Positions 1 to 44,108 of a stretch of DNA of 44,108 nucleotides are shown in pieces. Numbering within the stretch: position 1 is the first letter of the stretch; each line of letters starts with the position of its first letter. The notes under the pieces were generated by a model. The model worked only from the letters and a program-made list of their open reading frames with translations. It was not told the DNA's origin and did no database searches. Source of the DNA: a virus; the IMG/VR virus record IMGVR_UViG_3300038309_000228, positions 1-44,108 of that record, one strand, 5' to 3'. The translations under genes and the position numbers were made by a program.

Positions 1-77
1 TCCGCGAGCATTCGGGGCTCGAGGCCCCAGGGCCCCTCGTGGAGGGCGGGCCCGCCTTTGCTCCTGGTGGAGCGAAG
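1..77 (-). repeat. GC-rich multi-hairpin element, copy 1 (cut by window start)
   Basis: First of four near-identical copies (others 3571-3651, 8905-8985, 42183-42241). Read on the minus strand it holds successive stems: CTTCGCTCC/GGAGCAAAG, GCCCTC/GAGGGGC, GGGGC/GCCCC, and a terminal GAAT..ATTC dyad. It has the 'gcattc' variant also found in copy 2. Its left part is missing, so the leader and array that follow it are presumably those at the right end of the window. It lies 6 nt beyond the stop of the small gene at 83-268. It may be an IS200/IS605-type right end or a solo omega-RNA-like element; the sequence does not decide this. Confidence 0.85.
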
Positions 78-3289: not shown

Positions 3290-3439
3290 CTCCATCCCCC
3301 GCACGCGTGGGACGGACGAATCGTCAGCGTTGAACCGGTCGACAAGCGCCCTCCATCCCCCGTACGCGTGGGACGGACTTGCACACGCAGGCCATCGGGC
3401 AGTGGTCTACCCTCCATCCCCCGCACGCGTGGGACGGAC
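3290..3439 (-). CRISPR. CRISPR array 1: three repeats, two spacers, type I-E-like
   Basis: 28-nt repeats start at 3290, 3351 and 3412 with a 61-nt period; spacers are 3318-3350 and 3379-3411 (33 nt each). The transcribed strand, judged from the leader, is minus: repeat GTCCGTCCCACGCGTRCGGG followed by GGATGGAG. Repeat length, spacer length and the CCC..GGG stem fit subtype I-E. The first spacer shares 17 of 19 nt with a spacer of array 3. No cas gene is present in the window, so processing would depend on the host. The array sits directly upstream of the terminase small subunit gene. Confidence 0.93.
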
Positions 3440-3546
3440 TCTTGGCGGTTTTCTCAATGATTGCAACGAGTTACATAACACTGAAAATCCTACCAAAAGT
3501 TGGCCCAATTATGTCCGTCTCACTTGCACGAGATTCTCGTTTCTAA
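3440..3546 (-). promoter_or_regulatory. CRISPR leader 1
   Basis: About 107 nt that are nearly identical to leader 2 (42053-42159), while the first 63 nt equal leader 3 (44046-44108). It is AT-rich next to the first repeat, as leaders of active I-E arrays are. It carries the conserved dyad ACGAGA-T-TCTCGT at 3528-3540. Differences from leader 2 cluster in two short patches, next to the repeat and next to the dyad. Presence of the leader suggests that the array can be transcribed and perhaps acquire spacers. Confidence 0.8.
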
Positions 3547-3572
3547 CCAAGGCCATGAGATCATGGACCTGG
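3547..3572 (-). other. variable-sequence hairpin between leader 1 and hairpin element
   Basis: The segment folds as CCA/TGG outside, GG/CC, then CCATGA/TCATGG inside, with single-base bulges. The equivalent positions in the array 2 module (42160-42184) and methyltransferase copy (8884-8903) have a different sequence but the same stem architecture. This indicates a structure kept by compensatory changes. Confidence 0.6.
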
Positions 3573-3651
3573 AATCCGCGAGCATTCGGGGCTCGAGGCC
3601 CCAGGGCCCCTCGTGGAGGGCGGGCCCGCCTTTGCTCCTGGTGGAGCGAAG
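3571..3651 (-). repeat. GC-rich multi-hairpin element, copy 2
   Basis: Full-length copy. On the minus strand: CTTCGCTCC-ACC-AGGAGCAAAG stem, then the GCCCTC/GAGGGGC stem, GGGGC-CTCGA-GCCCC stem, and terminal GAATGCTCGCGGATTC dyad. It lies 12 nt past the stop of the holin gene and immediately upstream of leader 1. It might double as the terminator of the lysis operon. It shares the flanking TCGA with copy 3. Confidence 0.88.
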
Positions 3652-3663
3652 TCGAAATATCCA

Positions 3664-6363: not shown

Positions 6364-7503
6364 TCAACCGATCATGGACACGGCTTTCCTGGCGTTATGT
6401 GGGGCTAGATGAGCGTAGCGTAGGGTCATTTTAAGATCACTATGGCCTAGGAGCTCCCTGACTACGTTCAGGTCAACTCCTGATTGGACGAGCCTACTGG
6501 CAAAATCGTGACGTAGGTCGTGCCATCTAAAGTTTGTGATGCCTGCGCTTCTCATAAATCTGTTGAACCCCTGGAACTTTGTGGCAACGTATGGTCGTCC
6601 CCCTTCAAGATGGAAGATATAGGGTCCGACCTCTTTAGCCTTCAATTCGCAAAGTGCAGACATTGCTGCATCATTGAGTGGTACCCATCTCGCCTTCTTG
6701 CTTTTAGAATGCGCGGCCGGCACCTTGACTGCCTGGTTTTCCATGTCCATGTCTGGCCACCTCATGTTGAAAAGCTCGTGGGCCCGCAAACCAGTGTTCA
6801 TGCTTATGATTATGCCGCAGCGCATGTTGTCTCCTGGTGGCAAGGTGGCCAGCGCTGCACGGAGTCTGCTGCGCTCCTCGGCAGAAAGATATCTGACGTG
6901 GGAGCTATCTATGGGAAGGGTCTTGATGCCCTTTAGAGGATCTACGGCAATTATTTTCCTATCGATAGCCATCCTGATGACTGATCTAATGACTATAACG
7001 CTCGAGTCTATATAGCTGTTTTTCTTCCCCTGGGCCCTCCTCCTGGTTCTCCATGATTCAATAGTCTGCATGTCTATTTCTGATAATTTCTTATCACCTA
7101 GAAGGGGAAGGATATCCCTATTCAACCGATAGCGGTACCCGTCGAGTCCTTTCTTGGTCATCCGCACTGTAATTTCAGGAAGGTAATGGTCGGCCACAAA
7201 CTGGGCAAAAGTCCCTTCTGTGGGTCCAGATCCTCGACTACGCCTCTTGACCGCAACCAAGTCTGCTCCCCCGGCAGCCTCGATCATTTTATCCCTTGCT
7301 ACCTTACGAGCATCGTAAGTATTCATTTCTGGGAATGTCCCCAGCTTAACCATCCTGCCTCGGCACCAACGGTAATACCAAACCTTGGAGCCTCCCTTGT
7401 TTACCCTCAAAATCAAGCCGGTGAATTGGGAGTCGGCTATATCTACCGCCTTGTCTCCAGGATGGGCTTTTGAGCAAATTGTGTCGGTCAACCTTACTGC
7501 CAC
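6364..7503 (-). CDS. int: tyrosine-recombinase integrase
   Basis: About 379 residues; catalyses site-specific integration and excision. The N-terminal arm-binding domain has 'TGLILRVNKGGSKVWYYRWCRGRMVKLGTFPEMNTYDARKVA', the DUF4102-like pattern of P4/P2-type integrases. The catalytic domain shows Arg in 'NTGLRAHELFN', HxxR in 'HDLRHDFASRL', and 'LLGHSDLKMTLRYAHL' with the nucleophile Tyr. I start at GTG 7503 because GAGG lies 6 nt upstream; the ORF stays open to GTG 7533, but that longer start would run through the dyad at 7513-7537. It encodes 'SGVDLNVVRELLG', homologous to a spacer in array 2 but with about a dozen mismatches at nucleotide level. Confidence 0.95.
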   Translation of the reverse strand: MAVRLTDTICSKAHPGDKAVDIADSQFTGLILRVNKGGSKVWYYRWCRGRMVKLGTFPEMNTYDARKVARDKMIEAAGGADLVAVKRRSRGSGPTEGTFAQFVADHYLPEITVRMTKKGLDGYRYRLNRDILPLLGDKKLSEIDMQTIESWRTRRRAQGKKNSYIDSSVIVIRSVIRMAIDRKIIAVDPLKGIKTLPIDSSHVRYLSAEERSRLRAALATLPPGDNMRCGIIISMNTGLRAHELFNMRWPDMDMENQAVKVPAAHSKSKKARWVPLNDAAMSALCELKAKEVGPYIFHLEGGRPYVATKFQGFNRFMRSAGITNFRWHDLRHDFASRLVQSGVDLNVVRELLGHSDLKMTLRYAHLAPHNARKAVSMIG

Positions 7504-7512
7504 TTGGCGCCT

Positions 7513-7537
7513 CGTAGTGCAAATATCGTGCACTACG
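7513..7537. promoter_or_regulatory. perfect 9-bp inverted repeat with 7-bp spacer; candidate attP core or int operator
   Basis: CGTAGTGCA - AATATCG - TGCACTACG, immediately upstream of the preferred integrase start. Two inverted 9-bp arms around 7 bp is the geometry of a tyrosine-recombinase core site. It could instead be an operator controlling int. The host attB would have to be known to decide. Confidence 0.4.
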
Positions 7538-7844: not shown

Positions 7845-9008
7845 TTATTCGACGTGTGGGACCATGATTCTGGACACCTCTAGTATGACCGGCACTACTA
7901 CACTGTTTCCGAACTGACGGTAGGCCTGAGTGTCGCTGACGGGAATGCGGAATGTGTCCGGGAATCCCATGAGGCGTGCGCATTCGCGCGGGGTCAGGCG
8001 GCGCGGGCGCTTGCGGCTGCCCTGCAAGACGAGGATTTCCGAGCCGTCCTTGTAATACCGTGCCGACAGGGTTCGGGCCACGCTGTCAGGCGTGACCAGT
8101 CCGAAGCCGAAGCCGTTGCCGGCGGCGCGGTGCTTCTCCGCATAGGCCTGGAGATAGGCCCACAGTTTGGGCGTCAGGGTGTATTTCGGCTGGACGGTCT
8201 GCCGTCCGTGGTCGAAATACCGGTCATCATCCCAAGGCAGCACGGGCTCGGTGCCGTCCGTCCGGTGCAGGATTGAGGAAAGGCGTGGCCCTTCGGGCGG
8301 CAGTTGCAGACCATCCCATGAGAAGCCGGTCTTCTCGCGGAACCCGACGATGATGATCCGTTCACGGTGCTGCGGGGTGAAATGCTGGCCGTCGATAATC
8401 CGGTGATGCACGTCATAGCCCAGCTCGTCGCGCAGGGTTTGAAGAATGACGCGGAACGTGTTGCCCCCGTCGTGCGAAAGAAGGTTTTTGACGTTTTCCA
8501 GCAGGAATGCCTTGGGGCGCTTGGTGGCGATGATTCGCGCCACGTCGAAGAACAGCGTGCCCTGTGTGGTGCATTCAAAGCCGTGCGGACGACCGAGCGA
8601 GTTTTTCTTGGAGACGCCGGCGATGGAAAACGGCTGGCAGGGAAAACCGGCCAGAAGCACATCGTGATCGGGCACATCCTCTGCCGGGAATGGCACGATG
8701 TCGCCGACGTAAGGATGATGGTCGCCGAAGTTCTCGACGTAGGTTTTTTTCGAGAACCCGTTCCACTCACTGGTAAATACGCATTCGCCGCCATGGGTCT
8801 CGAACCCCATGCGGATACCGCCAATTCCTGCGAACAGGTCGATGAACCGGAACCATCCATCCCCCGTACGCGTGGGACGGACAGGTCCGCTACTTAGCGG
8901 CCCAGGAATCCGCGAGCGTTCGGGGCTCGAGGCCCCAGGGCCCCTCGTGGAGGGCGGGCCCGCCTTTGCTCCTGGTGGAGCGAAGTCGATGGTACTTCTG
9001 ATGTCCAC
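7845..9008 (-). CDS. DNA (cytosine-5) methyltransferase with element-derived N-terminus
   Basis: 387 residues; methylates cytosine C5 in DNA using SAM, probably protecting phage DNA from host restriction. Motifs in order: I '[16 protein letters not shown]' (55-70), IV '[11 protein letters not shown]' with Cys124, VI 'LLENVKNLL', VIII '[10 protein letters not shown]', then a target-recognition region, IX-X '[15 protein letters not shown]...[12 protein letters not shown]'. All key motifs are intact. Residues 1-52 are not family sequence: they are translated from the hairpin element (8905-8985), a small hairpin and one CRISPR repeat. No in-frame ATG exists before motif I, so the GTG at 9008 just outside the element is used. 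It is clearly richer in G and C than neighbouring genes, which suggests recent transfer. No cognate restriction enzyme was found beside it. Confidence 0.93.
8855..8882 (-). CRISPR. solitary CRISPR repeat inside the methyltransferase 5' end
   Basis: A single repeat differing from the array consensus only at its first base. It encodes 'VRPTRTGDG' in the methyltransferase frame. There is no leader and no second repeat. On its upstream side it touches the small hairpin and hairpin element copy 3, so it looks like a module reduced by deletion of leader and spacers. Confidence 0.85.
8884..8903 (-). other. variable-sequence hairpin, methyltransferase copy
   Basis: GG-x-CCGCTA / TAGCGG-x-CC. It has the same position and stem plan as 3547-3572 and 42160-42184 but a different sequence. 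Confidence 0.6.
8905..8985 (-). repeat. GC-rich multi-hairpin element, copy 3
   Basis: A full-length copy with the 'gcgttc' variant shared with copy 4. It is translated in frame as the start of the methyltransferase, giving a peptide ([16 protein letters not shown]) that is also the C-terminus of TnpB. It shares TCGA flank with copy 2. Confidence 0.88.
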
Positions 9009-13528: not shown

Positions 13529-14635
13529 ATGGGATCTATAATTCTTGATGAAATGTCAACGGCCCTCTCATGCGCTGATGTGCTCGTTGATAAGAATCCG
13601 CATTATCCAATCTACGGTAAAATACTATTCCATAAAGATTCTGATCGTCTTATGGTTACAGCTACTGACGGAAATATTACAATAATATACAAACTAGACT
13701 ACATCGGCCATGATGAAGCCGACCACGCCGTGGATTTCAGCAAGTTTTATGGGGCGGTTAAGGCGTCAAAAAAATGCCATTCCGTAGATTTGAATTTTTC
13801 AAAAAATACGGTTTCCATGTCAGGGGAATCTTTCAGGTACTCATTCCCTTCGGTGCCTGGCAGGGAATACCCTGAATATATTAGGAGGACTCCATCAGAT
13901 GTAAGCTCTATCGCCAAGGCTGGCAATCTTATTGATATGCTTTCAATGGTATCATATTGTTCTGCTAGTGGAGACCTCAGACATTTCCTAAACGGATTGA
14001 ATATATCCATAGATGGACGGATGATATCCGCAACCGCCACAGACAGCCACAGACTAGCCCACTATCGCTGCGACACTCAACACGAATCACTCTGCTCTGG
14101 TTCGGCAATTATTCCCAATAAGGCCGTAAAAGCAATCCAAAGAGCTCTTGGGTCATGTGATAGCGACTGCGACGTAAATATCTATATATATGAAAATGGT
14201 ATTGTTTTCTCGTGCGAAAATTGGACTATAGATTCTTCTGTTATATCAGGGAAATACCCAGATTGCTCTAAACTTATATCATTAGATTACCCCAATAAGA
14301 TACTGGTAAACTCTGGAACATTCAAAAACGATATAAAAAAAGCTTCAGTTTTAGGTGAATCTAGAATAAATATTTCTATAGATTGCGATAAGGTAAGAAT
14401 TAGTACCTCAATGGGGGAGGATTCATCTTTTTATTCAAGTTTTAACATCATTGATGGTTCAGGGAAAGAAATTATAGCGACCTATAATCCTTCTTATATA
14501 AAAGATTCATTGGACGTAGTTACCGGACCAAATATAAATATAGAGTATTCTGACGAACCAGAATCAAACCCCTTATTGTTTAAGGACGCCCTAAGACCAC
14601 AATGGATGAGCATTGTAATGCCAGTAAGGAATTAA
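13529..14635 (+). CDS. dnaN: DNA polymerase III beta sliding clamp homologue
   Basis: 368 residues, the usual clamp length; forms a ring that tethers polymerase to DNA. Recognisable parts: 'VTATDGNITI' in domain 1, 'FPSVPGREYPEY' (the FP..P..E(Y/F)P motif), 'LRHFLNGLNISIDGRMISATATDSHRLAHYRC' in domain 2, 'SGKYPDCSKLI' in domain 3, and the C-terminal 'MPVRN' that matches the MPMRL end. Phage-encoded clamps of this bacterial type are uncommon. It heads the plus-strand operon, followed 3 nt later by a DnaQ-type exonuclease, so the phage supplies two replisome parts. GAGG precedes ATG by 7 nt. Confidence 0.92.
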   Translation: MGSIILDEMSTALSCADVLVDKNPHYPIYGKILFHKDSDRLMVTATDGNITIIYKLDYIGHDEADHAVDFSKFYGAVKASKKCHSVDLNFSKNTVSMSGESFRYSFPSVPGREYPEYIRRTPSDVSSIAKAGNLIDMLSMVSYCSASGDLRHFLNGLNISIDGRMISATATDSHRLAHYRCDTQHESLCSGSAIIPNKAVKAIQRALGSCDSDCDVNIYIYENGIVFSCENWTIDSSVISGKYPDCSKLISLDYPNKILVNSGTFKNDIKKASVLGESRINISIDCDKVRISTSMGEDSSFYSSFNIIDGSGKEIIATYNPSYIKDSLDVVTGPNINIEYSDEPESNPLLFKDALRPQWMSIVMPVRN

Positions 14636-14637
14636 CT

Positions 14638-15180
14638 GTGAACAAAAATAGGATCATATCATTAGACACGGAAACAACTGGACTCAACCCGGATGACGGG
14701 CACAAAATCATAGAGCTTGCCATGGTTGAAATAATTGATCTCAATATATCAAGCACGTGGCGTAGCTACTTCAATCCATGTAGGACAATAGATATTGGGG
14801 CATCAGAGATACATGGCATAACAAGCGATCTATTAATTACGGCTCCATTTTTCAGTCATAAATCAAGAGAAATACTAGATTTCATAGGGGACTCCAAGCT
14901 TCTGATACACAATGCTCCATTTGATCTGTCCTTCATAAACAAGGAGCTGTTGATCGCATCAAGGGTTAATGGGGTTGATTACGGGCAAATAAGCGACCAG
15001 ACAAACGAAATAATCGATACATGTAAATTGTCTAGGATGCTTCACCCAGGGGGGCCAGCATCTCTGAACGCATGCCTTGACAGGTATGGAATTGACAGGA
15101 CATCAAGAACAAAGCACGGAGCCCTGATTGATGCCACTTTGCTGGCAAATCTCTATGCTAAGATGTGTCATTATAGTTGA
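14638..15180 (+). CDS. dnaQ: DnaQ-family 3'-5' exonuclease (Pol III epsilon-like)
   Basis: About 180 residues with all DEDDh motifs: Exo I 'SLDTETTGLNPDDGHKIIELA', Exo II 'LLIHNAPFDLSFI', Exo III 'RTKHGALIDATLLANLY' with the His-Ala-x-x-Asp pattern. It would proofread or degrade 3' ends. I start at GTG 14638 because AAGGA lies 7 nt upstream and the product then begins right at the domain; an in-frame ATG at 14602 lies inside the clamp gene. Together with the clamp it suggests recruitment or imitation of the host Pol III holoenzyme. Confidence 0.92.
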   Translation: MNKNRIISLDTETTGLNPDDGHKIIELAMVEIIDLNISSTWRSYFNPCRTIDIGASEIHGITSDLLITAPFFSHKSREILDFIGDSKLLIHNAPFDLSFINKELLIASRVNGVDYGQISDQTNEIIDTCKLSRMLHPGGPASLNACLDRYGIDRTSRTKHGALIDATLLANLYAKMCHYS

Positions 15181-17963: not shown

Positions 17964-18473
17964 ATGACATACAATATCTATAATAACAGACTCATTGTGG
18001 CGTCCAAGGAAGGAAAAGCCAAGCTGGTCCTGCGGGCTTTGGATAATGGGGCAGATGTTAACACCTCGAATAGAATGGGAGATACGCCACTTATGTTGGC
18101 AGTCGTACGCGGCCACTATGGAATCGTGGAAACACTAATTCATCATGGTGCTGACGTTAACTTGGGGAACAGGGAAGGCAAGACTCCCATTATGGCAGCA
18201 TCCTCCAAGGGCCGTACAGCCATATCCTCCATACTCATTGCCCACGGAGCTAATGTGGATGCCGTCGACATATATGGTGATACGGCGCTGATGTACGCAT
18301 CAAGGAATGGCTGCACAGAAATAGTCTCGACTCTAATTGACCACGGGGCCAACATCAGCGCCGCAAACAATAACGGCGATACTCCTATTGATATTGCCTC
18401 ACGTTATGTTGCCCGCTACGGCCATATGGAAACAGTTAATCTAATTAGATCAATTCTTGAGAAGAGGGCGTAG
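17964..18473 (+). CDS. ankyrin-repeat protein 1
   Basis: 169 residues made almost wholly of five ankyrin repeats, each with the 'G.TPLM.A...G....V..LI.HGADVN..N' consensus. No signal peptide or extra domain. Such proteins act by binding other proteins. In phages, ankyrin proteins are known from symbiont phages (for instance sponge-associated 'ankyphages' and Wolbachia WO), where they affect eukaryotic cells. The target here is unknown. It follows the zinc-ribbon gene by 5 nt and precedes a second ankyrin gene. Confidence 0.92.
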   Translation: MTYNIYNNRLIVASKEGKAKLVLRALDNGADVNTSNRMGDTPLMLAVVRGHYGIVETLIHHGADVNLGNREGKTPIMAASSKGRTAISSILIAHGANVDAVDIYGDTALMYASRNGCTEIVSTLIDHGANISAANNNGDTPIDIASRYVARYGHMETVNLIRSILEKRA

Positions 18474-18549
18474 ACGATTCCTGGAACGATCCACGTCCAG
18501 GGAGGTGCGCTATTATTCCAAAGACTCTGGAAATCTTCAGGAGATCAAG

Positions 18550-19386
18550 ATGTTAGATAATGTTTACAACGAGACTCTCATCAAGTCAGCAAGGAATGGA
18601 TGCACGGACGAGGCCCGTTGGGCTATTGAGAATGGGGCTGATGTGAATACCGTAGACGAATACGGCACCACCCCATTGATGCTGGCCTCCATGATGGGCC
18701 ATATCAATACCTCTCTACTTCTCATCAACAATGGAGCCGATATCGACGCAGCGAATAACCAAGGCGACACCCCACTTATATGGGCTACCCACTACGGTCA
18801 TATTGCCACAGCCGCCGCCCTAGCTGCACGGGATGCAGATGTAAACTTAGCAAACAAAGAAGGAGTAACCCCGCTCATATACGCTGCCCGCAAAGGGCTA
18901 AATAGCCTAGTAGAAACTCTCATCGCTTATGAGGCTGATGTCGATGCCACAAATTGCAGAGGCCACACCGCGCTCGCTATTGCAGTTCGTAACGGGCATC
19001 ATGGCACAGCATCGCTCCTCATAAGAGAAGGTGCCGACGTCAACGCTGCCGACAACAACGGAACTACGCCGCTCATGTACGCCGCAGACTACGGATACCT
19101 TGATACGGTTGCATTACTCCTCTACCACGGATCTGATATCAACGCCGCCAACAAATCAGGTAATACCGCTCTAGCCCTCGCAGCGCGTTATGGTCATAAT
19201 GACACAGTAGAGCTCCTCATCGACCGGGGCGCTGATATTAGCGCCGCCTCAAAGTATGGACTCACACCTCTAGATGTGGCTATTTCCAGTGGCCACGGAG
19301 AAACTGCCGACATCATCAGGTATCTATTAGGTAGGAAGTCCAGAGACCTCCTTGATGCATCGCATCAAGGAGCCACCGTAAGTTAA
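18550..19386 (+). CDS. ankyrin-repeat protein 2
   Basis: About 278 residues with eight ankyrin repeats from residue 3 to the last 20 residues; the capping repeat ends in 'DIIRYLLG'. ATG 18550 is preferred for AGGAG 8 nt upstream and because repeats begin at once; earlier codons overlap the first ankyrin gene. It is distinct from protein 1 but shares the layout, so tandem duplication is likely. It is the last gene of the plus-strand operon and ends at a strong terminator. No secretion signal is visible. Confidence 0.92.
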   Translation: MLDNVYNETLIKSARNGCTDEARWAIENGADVNTVDEYGTTPLMLASMMGHINTSLLLINNGADIDAANNQGDTPLIWATHYGHIATAAALAARDADVNLANKEGVTPLIYAARKGLNSLVETLIAYEADVDATNCRGHTALAIAVRNGHHGTASLLIREGADVNAADNNGTTPLMYAADYGYLDTVALLLYHGSDINAANKSGNTALALAARYGHNDTVELLIDRGADISAASKYGLTPLDVAISSGHGETADIIRYLLGRKSRDLLDASHQGATVS

Positions 19387-28472: not shown

Positions 28473-29446
28473 GGATTTCCCCTAGCCTGGTCCTGGCGCC
28501 CGCGCTCGAAAGCCTGGCGCTCCTCTTCCGTCATATCGGGTGGGGGATCCCCGTAGTCCCCGGTCACATCACCACCAGCCTGCCTCAATCTTCCTGAGTT
28601 ATACGCCATCCTTTGGCCATCATCCTGGTACGGATTAACGTAAGATTCAGATTGTTCTACTCGTGTGCTCCGTGCTGCATCCACACTGGCGTAATTTCCC
28701 CCACCTCCGGTATTTTGTATGGTTCCTGAATCAGTTACCTGGTACTGGTTATCACTCTCAAATGTTCCTCCTTCCTGGAATCCCCTGTTGTAGGCATCCC
28801 TTTCCTCTTGAGTCATATTTGGCGGAGGCTCGCCGTAGTCCCCGGTTAAATCGCCGCCTTGTCTTCTCATCCGCCCCTCATCGTAGGCCATCCTTTGGCC
28901 TTCATCCTGGTAGGGATTTTCAGAGGTACTTTGACCCTGGGTGCCTTGCGTTCTGCCATTAATATAGGCCTGCCTATCATCGCTGAATTGCTCTGAATCG
29001 GGCTGCATGGTCCCAACATTACTATCCTGCTGGCTTGGGGCTCCACCTGGTTGGGCGTATTGTTCGCCGTAGAATGACAGCTCCATGGTGAAATCTATTT
29101 TCCTCGGCAGCCCGTCCTGGAATAAATAATTATAGTTTTCTGATATATTTGTTATGCACCACAAGCCCCAAACATTACCCTGGCCGTCAACCATGCGTAA
29201 TGGAGTTCCCTTAGCTGCCTCCGCCTTCATCCTGTCAAATTGCTCTATCCCGCCCCTAAACAAGGGATAAATGGTCCCTGAAATCGTCACCTTATGTTCC
29301 CCAGGCCCGACGAACTGCAGGATAGGGTAGACTCCGATACGCTCCTGCGCAGGCCACCTGAATGCGTGGCTGCGCTGGAACGTCTCGTATGGATTTTCGT
29401 TAGACTGGAATCTGTAGTCTCCCAGAGCAATCATTGTGGACGGCAT
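28469..29446 (-). CDS. tail protein U (P2 gpU-like) with duplicated C-terminal extension
   Basis: 325 residues, about twice the family length. The first 135 residues match gpU: 'MIALGDYRFQSNENPYETFQRSHAFRWPAQERIGVYPILQFVGPGEHKVTISGTIYP' and 'NVWGLWCITNISENYNYLFQDGLPRKIDFTMEL'. The extra part holds two copies of a 40-residue unit, 'NPYQD.GQRMAY..GR.R..GGD.TGDYG.PPP.MT.EER', at about 188-230 and 279-321. The unit is hydrophilic and likely exposed. gpU sits at the tail tube/baseplate region. Confidence 0.88.
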   Translation of the reverse strand: MPSTMIALGDYRFQSNENPYETFQRSHAFRWPAQERIGVYPILQFVGPGEHKVTISGTIYPLFRGGIEQFDRMKAEAAKGTPLRMVDGQGNVWGLWCITNISENYNYLFQDGLPRKIDFTMELSFYGEQYAQPGGAPSQQDSNVGTMQPDSEQFSDDRQAYINGRTQGTQGQSTSENPYQDEGQRMAYDEGRMRRQGGDLTGDYGEPPPNMTQEERDAYNRGFQEGGTFESDNQYQVTDSGTIQNTGGGGNYASVDAARSTRVEQSESYVNPYQDDGQRMAYNSGRLRQAGGDVTGDYGDPPPDMTEEERQAFERGRQDQARGNP

Positions 29447-29447
29447 A

Positions 29448-32069
29448 TCAATCTACCATCTGCGCCCGTTGCTGGCGCTGCTGGTTTTCCTGATTCCGGC
29501 GCAGGTGCTCGGAGACTGCCCTTCCTACGGCCTCTGGGTCCCCGCCTGGAGGCACATTGATGGTTATCGGCGCGTTGACAGTCGTATTGTTGGTCTGATT
29601 TTGGGTCGTTGTTCCACGTGGAACAACGACGGGGCGCTGCGGGAATGGGATCACGTTGTCCCTTGGATTTTTCTGGGCAGGATCTTGGGGCGCAGGACCC
29701 GGTCCAGAAAAAGATCGATCATTTGCTGCAGTGACTGGCTCAGGCATTCGAGCAGCTGGTTTCAACTTGGATGTCGTGGACTCTTGCAATGTGGCTTTTC
29801 CCTCGTCGTTACCACCACCAAACTGCCTAGATACCCACCCGCCTACATCAGAAGCCTTATCCCCTACCCATCCCGTAGTTCTATCCACAAGACCGGACAC
29901 GGCATCGCCTACTTTACTTGGCAGGTTCAACAATCCTTGTATTTTCCCAGCAAGCCAATCAATCATTGAGCCTACCCAGGAAAAAGTATCCCCAAAAACA
30001 CTCTTTATGAACCCGCCAAGATCGGAGAATACGTTCTTTATGGTTCCTACTGGAGCTATGAAAAGACCGACTAGGTTTCCAAAAAACCACCCAATGTATG
30101 ATCCTATTGCATCCAGGACAGTCATCACGATGTTAAGCGCGCCTCCGATGGCGTTACCTATAGTGGCCCCAACCTCCGTCCATTTTTGCAGTTCAGTTTG
30201 GCTGGCCTTGGATTGTGTGGTTATGTCCCCAAACAAACTAGCAAATGCGTCGGCTAATGGCTTCATGGCCCTTATGATTGGTTCAAAAGAACCCTCGAGA
30301 GGCTCTATTGCGCCCTGTATCCCTTTCCAAACCCCCTTAGCAAAAGCCGAGAACTGGTCCCAGTATTTCCATAGCAGATACGAGGCGGCAACAACGCCTG
30401 CAATGGCCAGGCCCCACGGGGTGAAGAGCTGACCGATTGAAAATGCCCGTATTGCAGTGAACAATTTCGTGAATGTGCCGCCGAGGCCAGCGACAGTCTT
30501 TTGCAGGGTCTCAAAAAACATCCTTGTCTGGAGTACGGACATCCTCGCCAGAAGGGCAGCTCCATTAAATCCTATGATAGCCGCCTTGGCGGCAATGAAT
30601 CCAGCAACTACTGTCCCAATAACCTTGACGAGGCCCTCATTTTCGTGAATCCAATTGGATATCCTGCCTGATATATCCGCCACAACACCTGCTAATTTAG
30701 AAACCGCAGGAAGAAATGCCTCTCCGATAGCTGCAGATGTTATCTGCAGAGACGCTTTCATCCTGTTAATCTGGAAGGCTGTTGTCTGGGATTGTCGGTC
30801 GAACTCACCCTGAACCGAACCGGCATATTTTGTACGATCGGAAACCTTATCAAGCTCTGCGCTCAGCCCATCAACGTTCTGGGCCATAGCAGAAATGGAC
30901 GATGCGCCCTCGGATCCAAAGATCTCCGTGATGGTGGCCAATTGCCCTTCCTTCGGCAATTTATTCAATTGCCTGAGTAAAAGGCCAATTGTCCCAACCG
31001 CGTCACGCTGCATCATCTTCGCAACGTTCTCTGAGTCTAGTCCAATGCCAGCAAGGGCCTCCCTGGCCCCCTTTGACATGGAGGAGCCTTGCGTCATCGT
31101 CCTGAATAAATGCTCGAGGGAGGTTGCTGCCCTTTCTGGAGGTTCGCCTAAACCTTCGACGTATGAGCCGAATGCTGCTATTTGCAGGCCATTTAGCCCA
31201 GCAGCCTTACCAATTCCAGCAATGCGCTGCGTCAGGTCAACAATGCCCTTGACACTGGCATTGCCCTGATCGGCGAGGTAATTGATGCCATCCGCAAGAT
31301 CGGCTAACTCCGTCCTGTTGATAGCCAGACTGTTCTTTAGATTTTCGAAATCCTTGGCCGCGTCTGCGGGATTGGCATAATCCATGGCAACTGCGACTCT
31401 CGCAGCCTGCACCGCCACCTGGTTGAGCTCATCGGCAGTTGCCCCGGACTGGGCTGCGGCCGTATATAGGTCGGCCATTTCAGTGGCTGCAATGCCGGTC
31501 GCCCTCGATGTCTCCTCGACCGATCTCGTCGCGGCATCGAACTGCTCCTGGGTGCCATTCATCGCTCGATTGAGGCCGGTGTAGGCGGACTGCAGCTCTA
31601 TGGCGTCGCTGATCGGCTTTTGCATGACCATGAGCGTCGCTGCAGTCGCTGCCGCTTGCCCAAGCAGCTCCATGCCTCTGGCGTTCATCTCCTGGGCACT
31701 GCGCAATCTTTCAAGGCGACGTCGGGCATCTTCAGAAGCCCTACCCATTTCGCCGAGCTGGTCCTCAAGGTTATCAAGGTCGATGCCGTACCGCCTGGCC
31801 GCCTCCTCAGCACGAGCCATGGCCCTTGATACCCGGTCTAGCTCCTTTTGTATTTCATCGGCCGGGCGAGCCCCACTAGCCATCTCGGCGTTAAGCTCAT
31901 CAATGCGCTTGCGCAATTGATCGACGCCCTCGGCAGCCCGCATCACCCGATCTAGATTGCGGACTGCCTGGCCAAGCTCACCGATCTGGCCGCCCATGCT
32001 CTTGAATATTGAGCCGACGCTGGCGTCCCTCGTCGCGGAGAGCAATATTTCGTAATTGAGTTCAGCCAT
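29448..32069 (-). CDS. tail tape measure protein (gpT)
   Basis: 873 residues; it sets tail length and is threaded through the tube. The N-terminal third is coiled coil. 'LQSAYTGLNRAMNGTQEQFDAATRSVEETSRATGIAATEMADLYTAAAQSG' and the following 'DFENLKNSLAINRTELADLADGINYLADQGNASVKGIV' are the TMP core region of P2/Mu-like tails. Membrane-like segments follow in the middle ('VIGTVVAGFIAAKAAIIGFNGAALLA'), and the end is Pro/Thr/Asn rich. It follows E/E' as expected. Confidence 0.95.
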   Translation of the reverse strand: MAELNYEILLSATRDASVGSIFKSMGGQIGELGQAVRNLDRVMRAAEGVDQLRKRIDELNAEMASGARPADEIQKELDRVSRAMARAEEAARRYGIDLDNLEDQLGEMGRASEDARRRLERLRSAQEMNARGMELLGQAAATAATLMVMQKPISDAIELQSAYTGLNRAMNGTQEQFDAATRSVEETSRATGIAATEMADLYTAAAQSGATADELNQVAVQAARVAVAMDYANPADAAKDFENLKNSLAINRTELADLADGINYLADQGNASVKGIVDLTQRIAGIGKAAGLNGLQIAAFGSYVEGLGEPPERAATSLEHLFRTMTQGSSMSKGAREALAGIGLDSENVAKMMQRDAVGTIGLLLRQLNKLPKEGQLATITEIFGSEGASSISAMAQNVDGLSAELDKVSDRTKYAGSVQGEFDRQSQTTAFQINRMKASLQITSAAIGEAFLPAVSKLAGVVADISGRISNWIHENEGLVKVIGTVVAGFIAAKAAIIGFNGAALLARMSVLQTRMFFETLQKTVAGLGGTFTKLFTAIRAFSIGQLFTPWGLAIAGVVAASYLLWKYWDQFSAFAKGVWKGIQGAIEPLEGSFEPIIRAMKPLADAFASLFGDITTQSKASQTELQKWTEVGATIGNAIGGALNIVMTVLDAIGSYIGWFFGNLVGLFIAPVGTIKNVFSDLGGFIKSVFGDTFSWVGSMIDWLAGKIQGLLNLPSKVGDAVSGLVDRTTGWVGDKASDVGGWVSRQFGGGNDEGKATLQESTTSKLKPAARMPEPVTAANDRSFSGPGPAPQDPAQKNPRDNVIPFPQRPVVVPRGTTTQNQTNNTTVNAPITINVPPGGDPEAVGRAVSEHLRRNQENQQRQQRAQMVD

Positions 32070-41839: not shown

Positions 41840-42052
41840 CTCCATCCCCCGTACGCGTGGGACGGACCCCAACAGCTCCCGAACGGTGTTTAGATCGGCG
41901 CCCTCCATCCCCCATACGCGTGGGACGGACTCGAGCACCCGCGTAAAGATCGCCATGTATTGCCTCCATCCCCCATACGCGTGGGACGGACGCGGGTTGT
42001 CCACATACTGCACCACGCCATACCCTCCATCCCCCATACGCGTGGGACGGAC
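41840..42052 (-). CRISPR. CRISPR array 2: four repeats, three spacers
   Basis: Repeats begin at 41840, 41903, 41964 and 42025; the leader is on the right. Spacers are 41868-41902 (35 nt), 41931-41963 and 41992-42024 (33 nt). The inner repeats carry 'catacgcg' rather than 'gtacgcg'. Read on the minus strand, spacer 41868-41902 encodes G-A-D-L-N-T-V-R-E-L-L-G, the conserved end of tyrosine integrases. The array lies between tnpB and portal and is transcribed towards portal. No cas genes are nearby. Confidence 0.94.
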
Positions 42053-42159
42053 GCTTGGCATTTTTCCCAATGATTGCAACGAGTTACAGAACACTGAAAA
42101 TCCTACCAAAAGTTGGCCCAATTATGTCCGTCTCCAACATACGAGATTCTCGTTTCTAA
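42053..42159 (-). promoter_or_regulatory. CRISPR leader 2
   Basis: Nearly identical to leader 1, with the dyad ACGAGA-T-TCTCGT at 42141-42153. It lies just downstream of the tnpB end on the same strand, so leader transcription may also be fed by tnpB read-through. Confidence 0.8.
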
Positions 42160-42184
42160 CCTGGGCCGTGAATCACGATCCAGG
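42160..42184 (-). other. variable-sequence hairpin, tnpB/array 2 copy
   Basis: CCTGGG-x-CCGTG / CACG..ATCCAGG folds into an 11-level stem with AAT loop and one mismatch. It contains the tnpB stop codon. It matches the plan of 3547-3572 with a different sequence, for example T-A here where copy 2 has A-T. Confidence 0.6.
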
Positions 42185-43624
42185 AATCCGCGAGCGTTCG
42201 GGGCTCGAGGCCCCAGGGCCCCTCGTGGAGGGCGGGCCCGCATTTTCCCATTTCAGGGAGCATTCATTCTTCTGTGTCTCGATGCCCATGACTTTATCCA
42301 TGGTTTCCGGGACCACAGAGATAATATCACCATGCTTCATTTTGTCATTTTTTGAAGCTTTGATATTCTTGCATTTAACTTCTTTTATTTCAACATCAAC
42401 CACGTCGTTTGGCTGATACTTATAGAGATTCCTCGCCGCATTCTCGTCTCTGTCAACTATCAGGCCACATTCACACGTAAAAATCCTTTTATAGAGTGGC
42501 ATTTCTTCAGCAATCTTGCCGCAGGAGCTGCAGGTTTTGGTGCTCGGATACCACATCCCGGCCTCGACAATAGAGCGCCCATGCCATGCTGCCTTGTATT
42601 TGATGATTCCGAGAAGCTGGCCCATGGCGGCATCACTGCATGCCCTGGCAAGGTTACTATTTTTCATCATACCAGATACGTTAAGTGATTCTAACTTTAT
42701 CGTATTTGCAGCACATACGATATCATTAGCGACCCTGAATTGGGTATTTTTACGAATCTCCGCAACCTTCTTATGGATTTTCTCCACCCGGAGCTTCGCC
42801 TTCAGGTACCTACGGCTGTCGGTCTTGTATTTTCTCCTATCTCCACCTTCTCTCCTCGACAAAATGCGCTGTGCCTTTTTCAGCCTGCCTTCTGCCATGT
42901 ATAGAGCCCTTGGGTTCTCAAAATACCTAGCTTCCTGGCCATCGAATGTCGTCGCCAGAGTCTTTATGCCCACATCGACGCCAATCGACTCAGCCTGGGC
43001 TATGGTCTCCGGCAGATCCTCGCATTCATAGACGGCAGAGAGGTACCACTTTCCAATAGACCGGAATACGCGGCATGACAACATGCGCCCTTCAATACCA
43101 AAATCACCAGAAAATCTCATATGGCCCAATTTAGGGAGCCTGATCCTGTCTCCGTTGATGGAGACTTCCCATCTATATTCGCATCCAGGGCCTCCATTGG
43201 CATTCCTGCTGGATGCAAGGAAAAAGATAGAAATATTCGAGCGCCCCCTGGCCTTGAACCTGGGGAAACCGACCAGGTTATGAAGGAAAGACCCATCCGG
43301 CCTGATTTTGCGGCGCAGTTTACGCCCCCCTTTCTGGACATCCCTGAACCTTTTTAGGGATTCATGCATCGAAAAAGCAAGACCCTCTATCGATCTAGAT
43401 GACAGCTCCCGTAGCCACTCATGCTCCGGATTATCCCGGATTTTCCTGCAAATGGTCGTCAGAGTGAACTTTGAAGGAAACTTGCCAGTCTCGTCTTTCG
43501 TTCTCACAATTTCGTCTAGCATCTTATTCCAGACGAACCTCAACATGCCCAATTGGCGAGAAAGTGATGCCTCCTGGGTTTTGTTGGGGTACAGTCTGTA
43601 AGTCCGGCCTACCATCCTAGACAT
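42173..43624 (-). CDS. tnpB: TnpB RNA-guided nuclease (IS605/IS200 OrfB), intact
   Basis: 483 residues from ATG 43624, with GGAGG 5 nt upstream; the ORF continues upstream through CRISPR repeats but these are not family sequence. N-terminal 'GRTYRLYPNKTQEASLSRQLGMLRFVWNKMLDEIV' is the usual OrfB opening. The RuvC residues are all present: D217 in 'SIGVDVGIKTLATTFDG', E312 in 'IKLESLNVSGMM', D393 in 'DRDENAARNLY'. The zinc site is 'CSSCGK' (365-368) and 'CECG' (384-386). TnpB cuts DNA guided by an omega RNA made from the element's 3' end. Here residues 462-482 are encoded by the hairpin element. No tnpA is present. It lies between arrays 2 and 3 and begins 25 nt after array 3, so it may be co-transcribed with it. 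Its length, about 80-100 above typical TnpB, is in the range of small Cas12-like (type V-U) proteins. Confidence 0.94.
   Translation of the reverse strand: MSRMVGRTYRLYPNKTQEASLSRQLGMLRFVWNKMLDEIVRTKDETGKFPSKFTLTTICRKIRDNPEHEWLRELSSRSIEGLAFSMHESLKRFRDVQKGGRKLRRKIRPDGSFLHNLVGFPRFKARGRSNISIFFLASSRNANGGPGCEYRWEVSINGDRIRLPKLGHMRFSGDFGIEGRMLSCRVFRSIGKWYLSAVYECEDLPETIAQAESIGVDVGIKTLATTFDGQEARYFENPRALYMAEGRLKKAQRILSRREGGDRRKYKTDSRRYLKAKLRVEKIHKKVAEIRKNTQFRVANDIVCAANTIKLESLNVSGMMKNSNLARACSDAAMGQLLGIIKYKAAWHGRSIVEAGMWYPSTKTCSSCGKIAEEMPLYKRIFTCECGLIVDRDENAARNLYKYQPNDVVDVEIKEVKCKNIKASKNDKMKHGDIISVVPETMDKVMGIETQKNECSLKWENAGPPSTRGPGASSPERSRIPGS
42183..42241 (-). repeat. GC-rich multi-hairpin element, copy 4 (overlapping tnpB 3' end)
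   Basis: Shorter than copies 1-3: it lacks the outer CTTCGCTCC/GGAGCAAAG stem and joins the tnpB coding sequence instead. The position at the 3' end of tnpB on the same strand is where the right-end omega-RNA scaffold is expected. It has the 'gcgttc' variant. Confidence 0.85.
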
Positions 43625-43648: not shown

Positions 43649-44045
43649 CTCCATCCCCCGCACGAGCGGGGCGGACGCTGGCGCCGAAGGTAGAAGGCTA
43701 CAAGGTGAACCTCCATCCCTCGTACGCGTGGGACGGACTGAACCGGTCCACAAGCTCCTGGCGCTGCTTCACCCTCCATCCCCCGCACGCGTGGGACGGA
43801 CGTATCAAACAGATACTGACGACGCTGGCAAATCCTCCATCCCCCGCACGCGTGGGACGGACGTTCGCCCCTCATTTATAAAACCTAGTCTCATACTCCA
43901 TCCCCCGTACGCGTGGGACGGACGCTCCTATACAAGGCGCAGTTTCCGGCTGCGCCCTCCATCCCCCGTACGCGTGGGACGGACGTTTTGTGCATCCGCC
44001 CAAGGACCCTGGAACCCCTCCATCCCCCGTACGCGTGGGACGGAC
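43649..44045 (-). CRISPR. CRISPR array 3: seven repeats, six spacers
   Basis: Repeats start at 43649, 43711, 43774, 43835, 43896, 43957 and 44018 (28 nt each; period 61-63). The leader-distal repeat at 43649 is degenerate ('cacgagcggggcggac'), as expected for the oldest end. Spacers: 43677-43710, 43739-43773, 43802-43834, 43863-43895, 43924-43956, 43985-44017. Several read as open protein-like sequence. The second spacer in plus-strand order shares 17 of 19 nt with a spacer of array 1. Array 3 is the longest array and is directly upstream of tnpB. No cas1/2 or effector genes are visible. Confidence 0.95.
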
Positions 44046-44108
44046 TCTTGGCGGTTTTCTCAATGATTGCAACGAGTTACATAACACTGAAAATCCTACC
44101 AAAAGTTG
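44046..44108 (-). promoter_or_regulatory. CRISPR leader 3 (cut by window end)
   Basis: 63 nt identical to the first part of leader 1. The window stops in the middle of the leader. With copy 1 at positions 1-77 this would complete a module like that at 3440-3651 if the molecule is circular, with about 70 nt missing between the ends. Confidence 0.8.

Follow-up and report, generated by a model that had tools for sequence, protein, structure and literature searches.

Virus-borne CRISPR arrays are already known. In the Sulfolobales portogloboviruses SPV1 and SPV2, the use of host Cas proteins by mini-arrays against incoming elements is supported by sequence matches (PMC6858448). The tailed cyanophage N-1 carries one cas-less array with a leader, 4 spacers and a 37-nt DR5 repeat; its transcription was shown, and host-Cas use of the phage crRNAs was proposed (PMC4916379). 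Temperate C. difficile prophages have arrays within their structural/morphogenesis region (PMC6079278; PMC4916379); such arrays were proposed to act through host Cas proteins and to block related phages (PMC6079278). Phage solitary repeats, such as the Racr units, can inhibit CRISPR-Cas (PMC10651486). Bacteriophage mini-arrays surveyed earlier by Medvedeva et al. were without leaders, suggesting spacer capture by recombination (PMC6858448).

Here we analyse the 44,108-base virus record IMGVR_UViG_3300038309_000228, the whole of which we call the window. By contrast with the mini-arrays of that survey, this tailed phage has three arrays preceded by the same leader and showing signs of stepwise growth; such multi-copy, leader-bearing arrays are the new aspect. 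Like SPV1 and SPV2, it combines several intergenic, leader-bearing, cas-less arrays with a stand-alone repeat, and its own genome is spared by the spacers. The two portogloboviruses differ in being archaeal, in carrying 1-2 spacers and in having targets proven by 100% matches, whereas the present arrays are I-E-like, hold up to 6 spacers and yielded no target. As in N-1, no spacer found a match, but N-1 has a single array while here three arrays belong to a repeated module. The location among structural genes of a temperate phage is shared with the C. difficile prophages, whose arrays are of type I-B, with the host known and the crRNAs sequenced.

We consider it reasonably probable that these arrays serve interviral conflict, being cas-less, leader-bearing, I-E-like arrays of a temperate myovirus that are served by a type I-E system of the host. 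Transcription would start on the leader side of the arrays, and host Cascade-Cas3, loaded with the processed crRNAs, would then destroy co-infecting elements bearing the protospacers. New spacers would be acquired through host Cas1-Cas2. One spacer, at 41868-41902, would stem from the integrase gene carried by one such co-infecting element, the phage's own integrase being spared through differences at 13 of 35 positions. We infer, in particular, the I-E subtype, the transcription, the use of host Cas proteins, the acquisition by Cas1-Cas2 and the identity of the target. With the host in hand, it would become testable whether a phage can defend itself adaptively against other phages by means of borrowed Cas proteins, and whether conserved genes such as integrases are its preferred targets.

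Results and Discussion

Phage genome and array modules

By its genes, the record belongs to a temperate myovirus, with a gpA-type terminase, a lambda-type portal, an S49 head protease and a contractile tail sheath, together with a tyrosine integrase, a C5 methylase and a DnaN-like clamp. The relatives of its large terminase subunit (TerL) are at most 51% identical and did not point to a host. Amid the head, tail, terminase and integrase genes lie 15 CRISPR repeats at four places, forming three arrays and one solitary repeat, with 11 spacers in total. No cas family was found in about 35 scanned ORFs (small ORFs and some tail-region ORFs fell outside the scan), and only TnpB resembles Cas12 models.

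All four copies are on the minus strand, the repeat being GTCCGTCCCACGCGTACGGGGGATGGAG. Array A (3290-3439; 3 repeats, 2 spacers) lies upstream of the small terminase gene (TerS), with its leader and hairpin at 3440-3655. Array C (41840-42052; 4 repeats, 3 spacers) is directly upstream of the portal gene and is itself preceded by a leader and GC-rich hairpin block at 42053-42245. Array D (43649-44045; 7 repeats, 6 spacers), upstream of tnpB, has its leader at 44046-44108 and its hairpin at the other end of the window (1-77). The solitary repeat (8856-8882), with a hairpin at 8909-8985 and without a leader, is fused to the 5' end of the C5-cytosine methylase ORF. Module copies thus sit upstream of TerS, methylase, portal and tnpB. 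The GC-rich hairpin, of about 80 nt, occurs at all four (1-77, 3575-3651, 8909-8985 and 42187-42245), its copies being 97-100% identical, and between 3408-3633 and 42021-42245, blocks that take in the last repeat, the identity is 90% across 228 nt. The window opens in a hairpin and closes in a leader, so that both contig ends (1 and 44108) fall inside one repeated module, in which the assembly broke. Probably, then, this is a circular or circularly permuted genome that lacks about 71 nt between the contig ends.

The same leader precedes all three arrays on their strand, and the spacers are all different. In array C the three leader-proximal repeats carry the variant ATG, whereas in array D the three leader-proximal repeats carry ACG, followed by GCG and then by divergent repeats. 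Such an order is expected if every new spacer comes with a copy of the leader-proximal repeat, and it suggests that the arrays grew separately. The repeat variants therefore fit a stepwise and independent growth of arrays C and D; array A (GCG, ACG, GCG) is too short to judge.

An alternative is that the arrays are passive fragments of host CRISPR loci gained by recombination, the integrase spacer being an old host memory without function for the phage. Phages are able to pick up host arrays, our searches found no target for any spacer, and the integrase spacer is leader-distal. Nevertheless, there are three leader-bearing arrays, all oriented alike and located at gene boundaries, and the spacers and the blocks of repeat variants are particular to each. 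This fits better with arrays that are maintained and growing, and we regard the passive origin as unlikely. More tentatively than the interviral role itself, we also entertain that hairpin, leader and array make up a duplicated and dispersed "adaptation cassette", inserted at gene boundaries near the packaging genes, each copy of which would be updated independently via host Cas1-Cas2. The phage would in this way possess a multi-site memory against conserved coding sites of its rivals, namely the integrase active-site region and an SNF2 helicase motif.

Both the repeat and the leader were absent from the viral contigs, and a relaxed repeat pattern was absent from 84,980 species genomes, a set in which the host is probably not included. 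The module with its hairpin (3412-3660) had no match in phage and plasmid records, and Rfam returned no CRISPR family. Against the interviral reading count the lack of a protospacer or PAM for every spacer, the lack of a genome with this repeat among those searched, and the outcome of a simple promoter scan, which detected no promoter in the leader of array C or in the leader part of array D.

At the fourth copy, the methylase ORF is free of stops through the solitary repeat and the hairpin (8856-9008). There is no in-frame ATG just before the catalytic domain, hence the native start seems to have been lost to the module that took its place. The solitary repeat, a single leaderless unit like Racr (PMC10651486), could be a decoy of that type, judging by analogy. 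It differs from Racr in overlapping the start of the methylase ORF, in sharing its genome with array-type copies and in being known from sequence alone. Since the ORF around it continues into the methylase gene, it may also be only a remnant. This repeat is what speaks for a broader explanation, in which the repeats act mainly as RNA anti-CRISPR decoys, putting unproductive RNA onto host Cascade, the spacer content being incidental. We find this improbable, because three of the four copies are arrays with leaders and several spacers, and because recognisable genes are the source of three spacers and none of the spacers closely matches the phage itself.

CRISPR subtype

The arrays have a 61-nt period with repeats of 28/29 nt, and the first base is G in 10 of the 11 spacers. 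In E. coli type I-E, the first G of the spacer derives from the PAM. The repeat at 43649-43676, taken with the next G, consists of 5 nt, a 6-bp stem with a 4-nt loop, and 8 nt. It displays most clearly the I-E-type architecture of these arrays (28-29-nt repeat, short stem, 8-nt 3' handle, 32-33-nt spacers and 61-nt period), while the majority repeats carry changes favouring a shifted, longer pairing. Repeat architecture, period and the spacer-initial G together point to arrays of an I-E-like type. Among the window's scanned ORFs, none of the I-E cas genes (cse1, cse2, cas5e, cas6e, cas7e and cas3) was found.

The transposon nuclease gene

The tnpB gene (IS605 OrfB; 42242-43624, minus strand) lies between arrays C and D. 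Its product matches Pfam OrfB_IS605 and has the RuvC residues. Could it act as a Cas12-like effector for these arrays and so give the phage an autonomous system? The gene is on the same strand as the two arrays that flank it, and its best PADLOC match is the Cas12u4 model (4.7e-56); however, the PADLOC Cas12u and Cas12f models overlap TnpB. A phmmer search of the PDB gave 1e-54 for a designed TnpB-like nuclease, 1e-45 for ISDra2 TnpB, the nearest solved natural relative, and only 9e-5 for Cas12f. Being closer to transposon TnpB than to Cas12, the protein was rejected as a Cas12u/Cas12f effector. Furthermore, the length and stem of the repeat and the rule for the spacers resemble those of type I-E, and no tnpB accompanies array A or the solitary repeat. 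An effector role is thus highly improbable, and by its sequence relationships TnpB is a transposon nuclease. One hairpin copy follows the 3' end of tnpB, so the hairpin might be an omega-RNA or a transposon end reused beside the arrays.

The integrase spacer and the phage's own integrase

A sequence-only reading of this DNA had singled out the spacer at 41868-41902 as encoding, on the minus strand, an integrase motif of another mobile element. The spacer is real: it is 35 nt long, is bounded by the repeats 41840-41867 and 41903-41930, and is, within array C, the leader-distal and oldest one. On the minus strand it reads GGCGCCGATCTAAACACCGTTCGGGAGCTGTTGGG, which translates as GADLNTVRELL, a coding-sense fragment of a tyrosine recombinase gene, and the closing G codon takes one base from the repeat. 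With the leader to the right of array C, the minus strand would also be the crRNA sense. Given the spacer-initial G noted above, base 41902 is probably the 29th base of the repeat, which would leave a spacer proper of 34 nt.

The phage's own tyrosine integrase (6364-7533, minus strand; Pfam Phage_integrase 2.6e-32) carries GVDLNVVRELLG (GVDLNVVRELL) at about 6445-6480. Spacer and integrase gene (6446-6480) are identical at 22 of 35 nucleotides; the 13 differences, estimated earlier at about a dozen, entail two amino-acid changes, and with 3, 2 and 8 of them at codon positions 1, 2 and 3 their distribution is, on sequence grounds, that of two diverged coding sequences. In view of this divergence, we rejected a recent origin of the spacer from the phage's own integrase. 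It also bears out the expectation that the spacer would not self-target, the match to the own gene not being good enough, and none of the 11 spacers closely matches the phage's own genome (22 positions at best).

A coincidental peptide match might be suspected from the mere twelve residues involved and from the failure to find a DNA protospacer. The spacer peptide scores 44 against the own integrase under BLOSUM62, whereas 3000 random 35-mers of the window gave a mean of 17.1 and a maximum of 36. The corresponding Gumbel p is 2.6e-5 per spacer, or about 3e-4 over the 11 spacers. Moreover, the sense frame is open across the whole spacer, and every exact match of the peptide in genomes is an integrase (see below), so that we give coincidence practically no credence. 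These data uphold the view that the spacer came from the integrase of another element, and they identify its source, as far as sequence can tell, as another member of the integrase family to which the phage's gene belongs. The owner of that gene could be a rival phage, an ICE, a satellite or a resident prophage.

Search for the protospacer

We searched 2.9 million viral contigs and 84,980 species genomes with a pattern covering all synonymous codons of the spacer peptide. It occurred at seven loci in the species genomes, in Agitococcus, an Omnitrophota MAG, a Synergistaceae MAG, Enterovibrio, Bowmanella, Aliiglaciecola and one further MAG. All seven are tyrosine recombinases, with a frame of the type (H/C)DLxHxFxSxLVxxGADLNTVRELLGH. 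As the best DNA identity to the spacer was only 28/35, these are homologues of the source gene rather than the protospacer.

In the viral contigs we found neither the exact spacer nor any synonymous variant of its peptide; half of the peptide gave two matches, whose frames do not continue as the integrase motif. The wobble pattern recovered the window's own spacer and the collection contains integrases with GVDLNTVRELLG (two viral integrases), so this negative is not a failure of the tool. Blastn of the spacer against phage and plasmid records returned chance-level matches only. With no protospacer for 41868-41902 in the viral, phage, plasmid or 84,980-species collections, the PAM is not readable, and the earlier statement that the spacer is "direct evidence" of aiming at a competitor goes beyond the data. 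One homologous integrase (the Synergistaceae homologue, L104) has AAG, the PAM type expected for I-E, at the right place, formed by the preceding bases and the first G; no more follows from it than the occurrence of this context within the integrase family. Being leader-distal and the oldest of its array, the spacer may have a target that no longer matters.

Other spacers

Two further spacers, from separate arrays, point to a second conserved gene. The spacer at 43739-43773 in array D reads VKQRQELVDRF on the minus strand, an SNF2 helicase motif, and the spacer at 3318-3350 in array A reads ALVDRFNADD on the same strand, from the same site. Their translations overlap, with 17 of 19 nucleotides shared, and in the two strong SNF2 proteins used for comparison the composite peptide aligns immediately before the conserved SLKAGGxGLNL. 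By this alignment, both spacers come from one conserved site of SNF2 helicase genes. There was no SNF2 gene among the phage ORFs scanned, and the SNF2 peptide patterns were not found in viral contigs, phages or about 300 genomes.

Searches of the other ten spacers against phages and plasmids gave nothing beyond chance, and the short peptides were too short to yield anything usable against Pfam and PDB. Three of the 11 spacers, all in coding sense, thus trace to conserved genes, a share that partly reflects ascertainment because only conserved proteins are recognisable.

Additional features of the genome

The phage encodes a DnaN-like sliding clamp adjoining a DnaQ-like exonuclease (13529-15180). 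An adjacent gene pair at 17964-19386, unusual for a phage, comprises a larger ankyrin-repeat protein (six stretches by Pfam) and a smaller one that looks ankyrin-like. The GpU-like tail gene contains an internal direct duplication of 116 nt (28521-28636 and 28803-28918; 75% identity), and a perfect palindrome of 26 nt lies within the tape-measure gene (29605-29630).
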